64,000 nucleotides of DNA from Cloacibacillus porcorum (GTDB lineage: Bacteria > Synergistota > Synergistia > Synergistales > Synergistaceae). Below the pieces are notes generated by a model, which made no database searches, had not been told where the DNA came from, and saw nothing but the letters and a program-made list of their open reading frames with translations. The translations under genes and the position numbers were made by a program. The stretch is taken from contig NZ_CP016757.1 of NCBI RefSeq assembly GCF_001701045.1, positions 2,568,219-2,632,218 on the forward strand. Direction: 5' to 3'. Below, one piece after another: positions 43,055 to 46,398 of this stretch (position 1 is the first letter of the stretch; every line of letters starts with the position of its first letter).

Positions 43055-43166
43055 AACGCACCTCTTCATTGAATAATTATCATAAAGAGGATAGTTCATA
43101 TACGCAGACGGGGGCAGCGAAAAAACAGCCACCCGCCTCTGCGCATAACAGCCTAAAAAATCCTGC

Positions 43167-44642
43167 CTAAAGCGCCACGGTCTTTGTTGCGATATTGGCG
43201 CAGAAGGCGGCGTCATGTTCCACGAAGAGCAGTGTCGGCGCGCAATCTTTCAACAGCGCCTCGATCTGCATCCGTGAGACGACGTCGATATAATTGAGCG
43301 GTTCGTCCCATAGGTAGAGATGCGCCTGTTCGCTGAGGCTGCCGGCGATCGCCGTCTTCTTCCTCTGTCCAGCGCTGAAGGTGCTGATATCCCTCTCAAA
43401 AAGTTCTCTCGGAAGCTCCAGCTTGCGGAGATTAGCCTTAAAAATACTCTCGTCAACGCCTAGCCGCGCGGCATACTCTCGGAGACTGCCGTGTAAAGCT
43501 GACAGATCCTGATGTACGGACGATATCTTCAGCGAAGCTCCAACCTTGAGACACCCCCGATACGATAGCTTTTCGCCGCGAAGCAGACGGATAATGCTCG
43601 TCTTTCCCGATCCGTTTCCGCCGCGCAGCGCCACCCTGTCGCCACTCATGATAGTAAAGCAAACTCCCTCGCAGACGGTATTCCCTCCGTAAGAGATGCT
43701 TAACTCCACCGCCTCCGCCAATAACTCGGAGTGATAACGCAGCGGCAGCATCTTAAGCGGCTCCTCCCGTTCGATATCACGCAGCAGCTTCGACTTTTCC
43801 TCGATCGCCGCCCTCTGCCTGCCCTCCAGATTCTTTGAGCGCTTCATCATCTTGGCCGCCTTATGGCCGATATACCCCTTGTCGGCCTTGACGCCGGAAA
43901 TTTTCGCGCCCCGTTTGCTCTTCTCCACCCGTTCAGACCATTCTGAGGTACGCCGCGAGGCCGACTCAAGACGCGCCATCTCCCTTTTCAGCCGTTCATT
44001 CTCCGTCAGCTCGCAGCGCTCCCGCAGCGCAGCCGCCCGCTGCCACGAGGAAAAGTTCCCCTGCACCACCTCGATGGAGCTCCTGTTGATGGAAAGAATA
44101 TGGTCCACGCAGCCGTCAAGCAGGGCGCGGTCGTGAGAGACCAGGATGAAGCCGCTCTTTTTATTGAGATATTCACCCACAAGCGCCCTGCCCTCGGCGT
44201 CAAGATGATTCGTCGGTTCATCTATCAGCAGAAAGCTGTTTTCCCGCAGGAAGAGCGCCGCGAGTAAAATCTTCGTCCGTTCGCCGTTTGAGAGACTCCG
44301 GAAAGAGCGCCCCAGGAGGGCGGCGGGCAGGCCGAGAATATTCATCTCTTTCGCTATCCGCCACTCCGGACAGCTTCCGGCGGCGGACCGCAGCACCGCG
44401 GCGGCATCCGCGTCTTCTTTTGCGATGTCATATGGGAAATACTCAAAGGCGACATTCGCGGCGATCGTTCCGCCGTAATCATAACAGCCGAGCAGCAGCT
44501 TCAGAAAGGTCGTCTTGCCGCGCCCGTTCCTCCCGGTGAGCCCCAATTTCCAGTTCGTATCAATATTGAAGCTGGCATTCTCAAAGATATTCGCCGCGCC
44601 CGCATAGCCAAATGTAAGATCAGTTACTTTAATTAAAGACAT
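43167..44642 (-). CDS. ABC-F ATPase, Lsa-type ribosomal protection protein
   Basis: 491 residues with two ABC domains: Walker A GRNGRGKT (37-44), signature LSNGERTK, Walker B FLLIDEPTNHLD; then GGNGSGKT, FSAGQRKK, LYLWDEPLNYID. DTNWKLGLTGRNGRGKTT near the N terminus is a hallmark of the Lsa group, which dislodges lincosamides, streptogramin A and pleuromutilins from ribosomes. There are no membrane spans. The linker between the ABC domains (about residues 220-300) is long and basic, as needed for antibiotic-site access. ATG 44642 after GGGAGG. A terminator hairpin lies in the leader, so expression is probably induced by ribosome stalling. Confidence 0.85.
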   Translation of the reverse strand: MSLIKVTDLTFGYAGAANIFENASFNIDTNWKLGLTGRNGRGKTTFLKLLLGCYDYGGTIAANVAFEYFPYDIAKEDADAAAVLRSAAGSCPEWRIAKEMNILGLPAALLGRSFRSLSNGERTKILLAALFLRENSFLLIDEPTNHLDAEGRALVGEYLNKKSGFILVSHDRALLDGCVDHILSINRSSIEVVQGNFSSWQRAAALRERCELTENERLKREMARLESASRRTSEWSERVEKSKRGAKISGVKADKGYIGHKAAKMMKRSKNLEGRQRAAIEEKSKLLRDIEREEPLKMLPLRYHSELLAEAVELSISYGGNTVCEGVCFTIMSGDRVALRGGNGSGKTSIIRLLRGEKLSYRGCLKVGASLKISSVHQDLSALHGSLREYAARLGVDESIFKANLRKLELPRELFERDISTFSAGQRKKTAIAGSLSEQAHLYLWDEPLNYIDVVSRMQIEALLKDCAPTLLFVEHDAAFCANIATKTVAL

Positions 44643-44660
44643 ACAGATATCCTCCCTGTA

Positions 44661-44700
44661 AAAAATCATGAGCCGCGGGAAAGTCGATTCCCGCGGCTCA
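44661..44700 (-). promoter_or_regulatory. Transcription attenuator before the ABC-F gene
   Basis: A perfect 12-bp stem TGAGCCGCGGGA/TCCCGCGGCTCA with an 8-base loop is followed on the minus strand by TGATTTTTT, and only then by the GGGAGG ribosome site. It would stop transcription unless an alternative fold forms. TCCCGC at the leader peptide's end could pair with GCGGGA of the 5' arm. Confidence 0.75.
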
Positions 44701-44851
44701 TAACTGCAGAGAGAGGCCATCCGCGAATGCGGACGGCGGACCTGTGCCGTTATTATATGAGTTCAAGATATCGCAGCTTCCCCGCGCGGCATACGAAAAC
44801 AAAAGGCGCTTGCACCACGCCTCGGTCTGTCCCCTTATGCCCCGTCAACAA

Positions 44852-44872
44852 CTAGCGGGAGAAATTGCGCAT
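44852..44872 (-). CDS. Six-codon leader peptide (MRNFSR)
   Basis: ATG 44872, stop TAG 44852, with GGAG eight bases upstream, located between promoter and attenuator. Its size and place fit an antibiotic-sensing stall peptide. A second short frame (GTG 44818 to 44753, 21 residues, VVQAPFVFVCRAG...) has a poorer site and may be an alternative. Confidence 0.45.
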   Translation of the reverse strand: MRNFSR

Positions 44873-44942
44873 CTTCCCAACTCCAATCTTCCAGTAACGT
44901 TATCCGCCGGTTTTTTGCGGCGGAATCGCTGTCGCTGTCACC

Positions 44943-44972
44943 AGTATAGCATCAGCGCGCTGTCGGCGTAAA
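44943..44972 (-). promoter_or_regulatory. Promoter of the ABC-F leader
   Basis: On the minus strand TTTACG (44967-44972) and TATACT (44943-44948) are 18 bases apart, giving a leader of roughly 290 bases. A small CCGCCG/CGGCGG hairpin comes early in the leader. This leader explains the gap 44643-45030. Confidence 0.5.
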
Positions 44973-44983
44973 GCAGCGGACAC

Positions 44984-45010
44984 AAAAAAGCGCCGCCCTA
45001 GGGGCGGCGC
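44984..45010 (-). terminator. Terminator of the AGCS symporter gene
   Basis: A GC-rich stem GCGCCGCCC/GGGCGGCGC with a short loop, then TTTTTTG on the minus strand. Confidence 0.85.
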
Positions 45011-45030
45011 TTCAAGCAAACCACAAATGG

Positions 45031-46398
45031 TTATTTTGCGTTGGGCTTAAGGCGTCCCTGTTCGTCGAAATGGTTGAGCGCCTCGCTCACGACCTTGCTG
45101 AGGCCGATGAGGGCGATAAGGTTCGGGAAGACCATTATGCCGTTGAAGAAGTCGGCAAGCTCCCAGACCAGATCAAGTTTGAGCGTGGAGCCGAGGATGA
45201 CGAAGGCCATGACCGCGATACGGTAGGGCGTAAGCGCCTTATTGCCAAAGAGGAACTTCACGTTCTGCTCGCCGAAGAAGTACCAGCCGATGATCGTCGA
45301 GAAGGCGAAGAAGAGCATACAAATCGCGACGAAGGGCAGACCGAAGGAGCCAAGTCCCATTGAGAAGGCGTTCTGCGTAAGCGCAATGCCGCTCGTTTTG
45401 CCGTCGATGGCGCCGGTCACGAAGATTACGAAGGCCGTCATGTTGAGGACGAGGAAGGTGTCTACAAATACGCCCATGATGGCGACGAAGCCCTGCTCGG
45501 CAGGCTCCTTGACCTTAGCAACTGCGTGCGCGTGCGGCGTGGAGCCCATACCGGCTTCGTTGGAGAAGAGTCCGCGGGCGACGCCGTAACGGATGGCTTC
45601 TTTCATCGTAGCGCCGATGAGACCGCCGGTGGCCGCCGCGGGATTGAAGGCGCCCTCAAATACCATACCGAAGGCCGGGAGGATATGTGAGGCGTGGGTA
45701 ACGAGGATATAAAGGCCGCCGAGGAGATAACCGGCCGCCATGACCGGGACTATCTTTTCCGTAATAGCGGCGATACGGCCCATGCCGCCGAAGAATACGA
45801 AACCGCCGGCCGCCGCAACAATGACGCCGATGAGAAGGCGGTTCACGCCAAAGGCGTTGTTAAAGGCGTCGGCGATGGAGTTCGACTGCACCATGTTGCC
45901 GATGAAGCCGAGGGCCATGATGATCGCCACTGAGAAGAATACCGCAAGCCCCTTGCTCTTAAGGCCGCGCGAAATGTAATAGGCCGGACCGCCGACGACG
46001 CTGCCGTCAGGCATCTTTTCCTTATAGACCTGCGCGAGCACCGCCTCCGCGAAGATCGTCGCCATTCCGAAGAAGGCCGCGATCCACATCCAGAAGATTG
46101 CTCCCGGGCCGCCTACGGCGATCGCCGTCGCCGCTCCGGCGAGGTTTCCCGTACCGACCTGCGCGGCGATCGCCGTCGCAAGGGCCTGGAAAGAGCTCAT
46201 ACCGTCCTTGTCGGCGCGCTTACCGAAAAGGGTCAGCTGCCCAAAGGTATACTTGAACGCCATGGCAAATTTGCGTATCTGGACAAAATTCAGCCTCAGC
46301 GTAAAGTAAAGCCCCGTGCCGCAGAGAAGCGGAATAAGACAATAAAGGCCCCAAATAAAACTATTGGCCTTCGACACCAGTACCGTTAACTGATCCAT
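45031..46398 (-). CDS. Sodium:alanine/glycine symporter (AGCS family)
   Basis: 455 residues, about 11 spans. GTGNLAGAATAIAVGGPGAIFWMW and GLFSNEAGMGSTPHAHA are AGCS signatures. Imports (or exports) alanine or glycine with Na+. ATG 46398 after AGGAGAGG. Its own promoter and terminator make it monocistronic. Confidence 0.92.
   Translation of the reverse strand: MDQLTVLVSKANSFIWGLYCLIPLLCGTGLYFTLRLNFVQIRKFAMAFKYTFGQLTLFGKRADKDGMSSFQALATAIAAQVGTGNLAGAATAIAVGGPGAIFWMWIAAFFGMATIFAEAVLAQVYKEKMPDGSVVGGPAYYISRGLKSKGLAVFFSVAIIMALGFIGNMVQSNSIADAFNNAFGVNRLLIGVIVAAAGGFVFFGGMGRIAAITEKIVPVMAAGYLLGGLYILVTHASHILPAFGMVFEGAFNPAAATGGLIGATMKEAIRYGVARGLFSNEAGMGSTPHAHAVAKVKEPAEQGFVAIMGVFVDTFLVLNMTAFVIFVTGAIDGKTSGIALTQNAFSMGLGSFGLPFVAICMLFFAFSTIIGWYFFGEQNVKFLFGNKALTPYRIAVMAFVILGSTLKLDLVWELADFFNGIMVFPNLIALIGLSKVVSEALNHFDEQGRLKPNAK

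Follow-up and report, generated by a model that had tools for sequence, protein, structure and literature searches.

The closest described counterparts of the locus reported here are the leaders of vmlR in Bacillus subtilis, cplR in Clostridioides difficile and lsa(A) in Enterococcus faecalis. The passages of PMC9226507 on the vmlR leader describe an upstream ORF (uORF) bearing a Shine-Dalgarno (SD) sequence inside an anti-antiterminator, followed by an antiterminator and an intrinsic terminator, an arrangement like that of our locus. The controlled gene likewise belongs to ABC-F and concerns the same classes of drug, and the 30S toeprint position relevant to our switch, +16, is that of vmlR; the vmlR uORF is MIN, the leader sequence is different, and a NusG pause hairpin and a further hairpin that blocks the SD are extras of the vmlR leader (PMC9226507, same passages). 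The cplR leader, as presented in the sections of PMC10201436 devoted to it, also has a short uORF (MR[I/M]) in a 5' hairpin and a terminator before the gene, and is induced by retapamulin and lincomycin; unlike in our locus, the cplR terminator hides the SD of the gene, and both the ABC-F group and the leader are different. The vmlR and cplR leaders alike combine an anti-antiterminator, an antiterminator and a terminator with stalling at the uORF start codon. lsa(A) shares with our locus the Lsa protein family and a predicted uORF, but the uORF consensus given for it in those sections of PMC10201436 is MAGN. Plasmid-borne lsa(E) carries the same RNA element as our locus, although its protein is only 54.9% identical.

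Here we analyse a 64,000-nucleotide stretch of the Cloacibacillus porcorum chromosome (NZ_CP016757.1, positions 2,568,219 to 2,632,218; hereafter the window), in which an ABC-F gene of the antibiotic-resistance type is very probably governed by a ribosome-controlled transcription attenuator. This attenuator most likely works like those of vmlR and cplR, but, from the comparisons above, appears to be a distinct RNA element for which we found no earlier report; no description of this leader family, including the lsa(E) switch, was recognised in the open literature. Assignment to a known Rfam class was rejected for want of a match at the gathering score: with E 1 as the limit, window positions 44500-45200 gave four matches, each implausible and short of that score, and a search of 20 loci returned one T-box, one TPP and one tRNA, none of them on the attenuator.

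An Lsa-like gene and the predicted parts of its 5' region

The protein encoded by the window gene matches the NCBIfam Lsa family (NF000167) over its full length (residues 1-491; 668.9 bits, E 5e-201), in support of the Lsa-type ABC-F gene proposed in the preliminary description. Since this score lies under the curated cut-off of 750 bits, we call the protein Lsa-like; it passes NF000355 (ribosomal protection-like ABC-F) with 428.7 bits against a cut-off of 380. The closest relatives found are at most about 60% identical, and the top match among solved structures is Lsa(A) (7nhk, 411.7 bits). In the alignment to 7nhk, Lys244 of LsaA corresponds to Lys and Phe257 to Ala; the mutational data excerpted from PMC8196190 indicate that loss of Lys244 nearly abolishes LsaA resistance and that loss of Phe257 changes nothing. 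The Lsa-like protein is presumed to protect the ribosome.

Every part named in the preliminary description is present on the minus strand, from 44972 down to the lsa ATG at 44642 (Table 1). One promoter-like site was found compared with 0.6 expected by shuffling, which alone is weak evidence; transcription from it would start near 44936. The GGAG of the leader ORF sits 8 bases upstream of its start codon. The 301-base leader folds at -135.4 kcal/mol compared with -99.9 (sd 5.2) for shuffled sequences (z -6.8; none of 100 shuffles was as good). The terminator, earlier described as a perfect 12-bp hairpin, is indeed located at 44700-44669 but is longer, having 13 perfect pairs, or 14 with 44701/44668. 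It was picked up by two further scripts and was not among the calls of a simple terminator scan, which were the agcS terminator and one other. A strong small hairpin (CCGCCGC..CCGGCGG; 44924-44903, minus strand) precedes the uORF, close to where the leader RNA begins. In addition, a short inverted repeat, ACAG/CTGT, surrounds the lsa ribosome site (44659-44643, minus strand) and is possibly a minor second lock on lsa; no such repeat was seen by eye at the lsa ribosome site of relatives.

Table 1. Features of the lsa-like locus and its leader, in window coordinates.
Feature	Position	Strand	Basis or remark
Sigma-70-like promoter, TTTACG-18-TATACT, TG before -10	44943..44972	minus	9/12 matches
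Shine-Dalgarno GGAG of leader ORF, within conserved GATTGGAG	44881..44884	minus	kept in alignments A1 and A4
Leader uORF MRNFSR-stop, ATG-CGC-AAT-TTC-TCC-CGC-TAG	44852..44872	minus	sequence
Segment 1, TTTCTCCCGC, inside leader uORF	44864-44855	minus	sequence
Segment 2, anti-leader, GCCGCGCGGGGAAGCTGCGATAT	44768..44790	minus	partners: segment 1, or segment 4 and loop
Region matched by covariance model R1, with SD, uORF, inner helix and segment 2	44765..44892	minus	57.2 bits
Segment 3, terminator 5' arm, TGAGCCGCGGGAA	44688..44700	minus	sequence, scripts, covariation
Terminator loop, TCGACT	44687-44682	minus	sequence, scripts, covariation
Segment 4, terminator 3' arm, TTCCCGCGGCTCA	44681-44669	minus	sequence, scripts, covariation
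T run of intrinsic terminator, six T	44660..44665	minus	sequence
lsa ribosome-binding site, GGGAGG	44651..44656	minus	sequence
lsa-like ABC-F gene	43167..44642	minus	491 aa; ATG at 44642
Stretch without counterpart in same-genus genome G001	43155..45028		blastn vs L125

The leader is conserved in relatives and accompanies lsa genes

Short ORFs ending in FSC, LSC or similar were found upstream of lsa in Synergistota and Clostridia. Three chance or odd rows (L032, L080, L062) were dropped before a list of 71 sequences was made, and a covariance model, R1, was built from an alignment of 34 relatives (A1) that excluded the window. The leader and inner helices are paired in 83.1% of the cells of A1 compared with 44-54% when slid by 1-3 columns, and their covariation is 0.285 compared with 0.096-0.157 in the slid controls. 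In the window, R1 finds the element at E 5e-11, the only other match having E 6; because the model was built without the window, this match upholds the earlier description of an attenuator with a leader of six codons and shows that relatives share it, and the lack of leader conservation that would have spoken against it was not what we found. On the lsa strand, an R1 match at E ≤ 0.001 is present in 73 of 100 sources (the window and 99 loci, of which 34 are R1's own rows); the counts omit L171, L172 and L195, where the match is an antisense echo of palindromic hairpins. A terminator-like hairpin accompanies 122 of the 124 elements compared below, as called by a script and with a few doubtful in register.

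Among 185 Synergistota genomes, R1 matches 14 at E ≤ 0.05, seven strongly and seven weakly. The strong matches (E 2.2e-8 or better; G000, G008, G029, G055, G105, G116 and G119) all stand before lsa (for G029, a fragment of lsa where the contig ends) and bear out the earlier suggestion of a Synergistota example of such a switch; L005, L009, L111, L114 and the near-copy L112 among these elements are R1's own rows or nearly so, and the window is not. The weak matches (E 0.0015-0.048; G023, G058, G043, G103, G083, G102 and G025) have no lsa behind them, are about the number expected by chance for 185 genomes, and were rejected. A strong Lsa protein match occurs in 14 Synergistota genomes, six with the switch and eight without an R1 match, indicating that the gene can exist without the switch. 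Upstream of lsa in two Synergistota loci (L002 and L113), the leader half is absent and an apparent terminator 3' end is kept; expression of these genes may be constitutive.

Outside Synergistota, R1 matched at E 1e-4 in 24 of 398 genomes sampled from the phylum to which a Desulfosporosinus genome belongs and in 32 of 391 sampled from the class that includes an uncultured Dorea genome. R1 alone led to 49 new Bacillota loci, not counting the matches in G955 and G883, which lack a locus. A Lsa homologue follows on the same strand in 47 of the 49; in the other two (L177 and L181), what comes directly behind the terminator is the opening codons of a broken lsa gene (MSLINVANLTFAYDG; MSQIKVTNLTFAYDGSYDNLFE). 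At these two sites (L177 1747-1790; L181 1735-1800), lsa is lost and the attenuator retained. The plasmid lsa(E) locus (L128, pD12-2) has the leader MYNFSC, segments 1-4 and an R1 score of 98.9 bits, L128 being one of R1's rows. A search of the lsa(B) locus found no R1 element, and R1 likewise failed to match at an LsaA-like gene from E. raffinosus (L132).

A second leader-like element was observed just upstream of lsa in L041, L046, L035, L063, L082, L106, L129 (lsa(B)) and L206. It consists of a small ORF (..THD.L.I..) over CTCCRTATA...TATAYGGAG, with the extra complements GGCGAC/GTCGCC and CCGGA/TTCCGACTT, is pseudoknot-like, and lies downstream of the attenuator in Clostridium-type loci and alone in lsa(B).

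Three mutually exclusive pairings covary

Pairing between segments was assessed in an alignment of 60 full-length sequences including the window (A4), aligned by sequence and chosen from 94; L190, L219, L102, L062, L009, near-copies, and L099 and L107 (terminator uncalled) had been left out before the 94. In A4, the terminator (segments 3 and 4, or 3:4) is paired in 97.2% of cells compared with 43-55% when slid, with double changes in 11 of 12 pairs; the anti-antiterminator (1:2) in 88.2% compared with 38-54%, with double changes in 8 of 13 pairs; and the antiterminator (2:4) in 89.9% compared with 43-58%, with double changes in 7 of 12 pairs. Pairs made only in the antiterminator, between segment 2 and the terminator loop, are formed in 75.2% of cells compared with 32-52%. 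This covariation, together with the folding series below, points to anti-antiterminator, antiterminator and terminator as mutually exclusive structures. An earlier covariation test on self-picked segments is biased, each row's segments having been chosen for pairing, with rows in the wrong register (L094, L212, L044, L062, L084 and others), and is not relied on; a first automatic segment search yielded many false segments and was discarded.

Segments 1, 2, 3 and 4 are TCTCCCGC, GCGGGGAA, GCGGGAA and TTTCCCGC in the window, and TTTCTTGC, GCAAGAAA, GCAAGAA and TTTCTTGC in the family consensus. Despite this four-way change, 7 of 8 pairs are kept in 1:2 and all 8 in 2:4. The TCCCGC/GCGGGA match offered earlier as a possible anti-terminator is real as complementarity but unlikely to have that role; the covarying set consists of 1:2, 2:4 and 3:4.

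Folding order and a proposed mechanism

Predicted energies in the window are -31.5 kcal/mol for the terminator, -23.0 for the antiterminator duplex, -20.7 for 1:2 and -12.6 for 1:3. Because the terminator beats the antiterminator at equilibrium, the switch must act by timing rather than by final stability. We folded the window RNA at growing lengths, either free or with the AUG masked by an assumed ribosome covering 15 bases ahead of it and 17 from it onward. In the unmasked RNA, 1:2 holds throughout, with 16 uORF bases paired, and 3:4 forms on emergence. When the AUG is masked, segment 2 is the first partner of segment 4, with 9 bases and later 12 paired over lengths 260-264, and 3:4 does not prevail until length 268. 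If polymerase hides about 10 bases of RNA, the length free to fold when it has reached the T run would be near 264.

We propose that, without drug, ribosomes would quit the six-codon uORF fast, leaving segment 1 to pair with segment 2, and the 3:4 hairpin would stop transcription ahead of lsa. A lincosamide, pleuromutilin or streptogramin A would arrest a ribosome at the uORF start codon or immediately beyond it, where the ribosome would cover segment 1, whose last base is at +18, and free segment 2. As segment 4 would leave the polymerase loop side first, the freed segment 2 could pair with the terminator loop and 3' arm, and this 2:4 pairing would block the terminator and let transcription continue into lsa. 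On this model, the uORF is predicted to be translated, its ribosomes to be stalled by these drugs, and read-through to rise.

The gene is patchy and absent from a same-genus genome

The neighbours of the lsa-like gene are a gene of unknown function and agcS, which ends at 45031 and has its own terminator at 45013-44987. Genome G001, of the same genus, has matches to both flanking genes about 0.1 kb apart, a clean site without gene or switch, which indicates that the two were acquired or lost together. For the same reason, the intrinsic tolerance hinted at in the preliminary description is doubtful. GC content (56.4%) and GC3 (0.69) are slightly under those of the neighbours. In a quick-method protein tree, the window protein groups at a support of 89 with L005, L111-L114, L002 and a single Clostridiales MAG; its branch is long (0.98) and weakly supported in its placement.

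One Synergistota assembly (G008) carries on a 9.3-kb contig (contig 25; L007/L126) a Lsa protein identical to plasmid Lsa(E), possibly a recent transfer or contamination. Codon 2 of its leader is changed from TAT to the stop TAA.

A probable role of ribosome position rather than leader peptide

Comparison of 124 elements (73 and 51), with uORF starts picked by a script and L062, L078, L086 and L131 also offering a start-stop reading, showed that the uORF has six codons in 69 and is a bare start-stop in 34; lengths of 2, 3, 4, 5, 7 and 35 codons occur in 9, 3, 1, 3, 3 and 2. A role for the nascent peptide MRNFSR (family consensus MxxFSC) as the stalling signal needed for sensing would fit the predominance of six-codon leaders and their use of TCT at codon 5 (62 of 69), and a section of PMC10201436 calls the vmlR uORF sequence crucial. 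We consider it unlikely all the same. The start-stop and two-codon leaders have no such peptide, yet the RNA segment is kept in nearly all; codon 6 of the six-codon leaders is TGC in 67, CGC in two (the window and L009) and never TGT; leader codons 2-3 covary with segment 2; and variant vmlR uORFs still induce, according to the induction data seen in PMC9226507.

What is shared is a distance. CTTGC is found no more than 24 bases from the start in 112 of 124 elements (62 of 69 six-codon and 33 of 34 start-stop leaders) compared with a background of 2.1% of all ATGs in the loci, a contrast to be read with the fact that R1 favours such rows. The motif was found in 113 leaders, and in 95 of these its last C falls at +16 to +18, counted from the start codon (+18 in 69, +16 in 24). 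PMC9226507 places the 30S toeprint at the vmlR uORF start at +16, and PMC12421871 reports that lincosamides, tiamulin and pristinamycin IIA stall ribosomes at uORF start codons. A ribosome held at the start codon would already lie over the switching segment, which ends at +16 to +18, and this would allow the uORF to be reduced to AUG-stop; the peptide F-S-R probably arises as a side effect of RNA pairing. Thus, MRNFSR is probably not itself the sensor, given that its letters follow the RNA pairing and that many relatives carry a bare start-stop. We lean, with some reserve, towards a single RNA family in Synergistota and Bacillota that moves with lsa, including plasmid lsa(E), and that senses peptidyl-transferase drugs by the place of the ribosome and not by the peptide.

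Two further explanations are both very improbable. A general sensor of slow translation or of a shortage of Arg, Ser or Cys, as opposed to an antibiotic sensor, would draw on the fact that any leader stall would cover segment 1; start-stop leaders, however, read only Met, and all 49 loci found blindly have lsa or an lsa remnant behind the element. That the gene and switch are a non-functional relic, or that lsa is otherwise driven, would agree with the patchiness of the gene, absent from G001, and with the lost leaders of L002 and L113, but the ORF is intact, K244 is kept, and all four RNA segments have changed together. Least probable of all, by a little, is segment 1 itself as the antiterminator, pairing with the terminator 5' arm: the 1:3 complementarity is real (95.2% of cells in the 60 sequences) and its duplex is predicted to be stable to the extent given above, but it shows double changes in no more than 2 of its 7 pairs, a level that 222 of 500 shuffles also reach, is weaker than 1:2 and 2:4, would have the drug-stalled ribosome cover segment 1 and turn the gene off, and follows by necessity because segments 1 and 4 both match segment 2, so we rejected it as a shadow of 1:2, 2:4 and 3:4.

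Discussion

Start-stop sites are known in E. coli and Campylobacter (in the material drawn from PMC11955535), and start-stop uORFs in eukaryotes (likewise from part of PMC5972666); a bacterial start-stop leader that senses an antibiotic was not recognised in the open literature. According to PMC10219788, the uORF4u search tool by default skips leaders of less than three codons, so such switches may be widely missed. Leaders of start-stop, 2, 3, 6 and 7 codons on one RNA frame form a natural series in which the contribution of the peptide can be set against that of ribosome place. If the sensing of ribosome position by a shared RNA element is correct, it would suggest how plasmid lsa(E) may stay silent until drug is present, which could give a mismatch between genotype and phenotype, and the C. 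porcorum locus would be the first example in Synergistota of drug-sensed control of an ABC-F gene.
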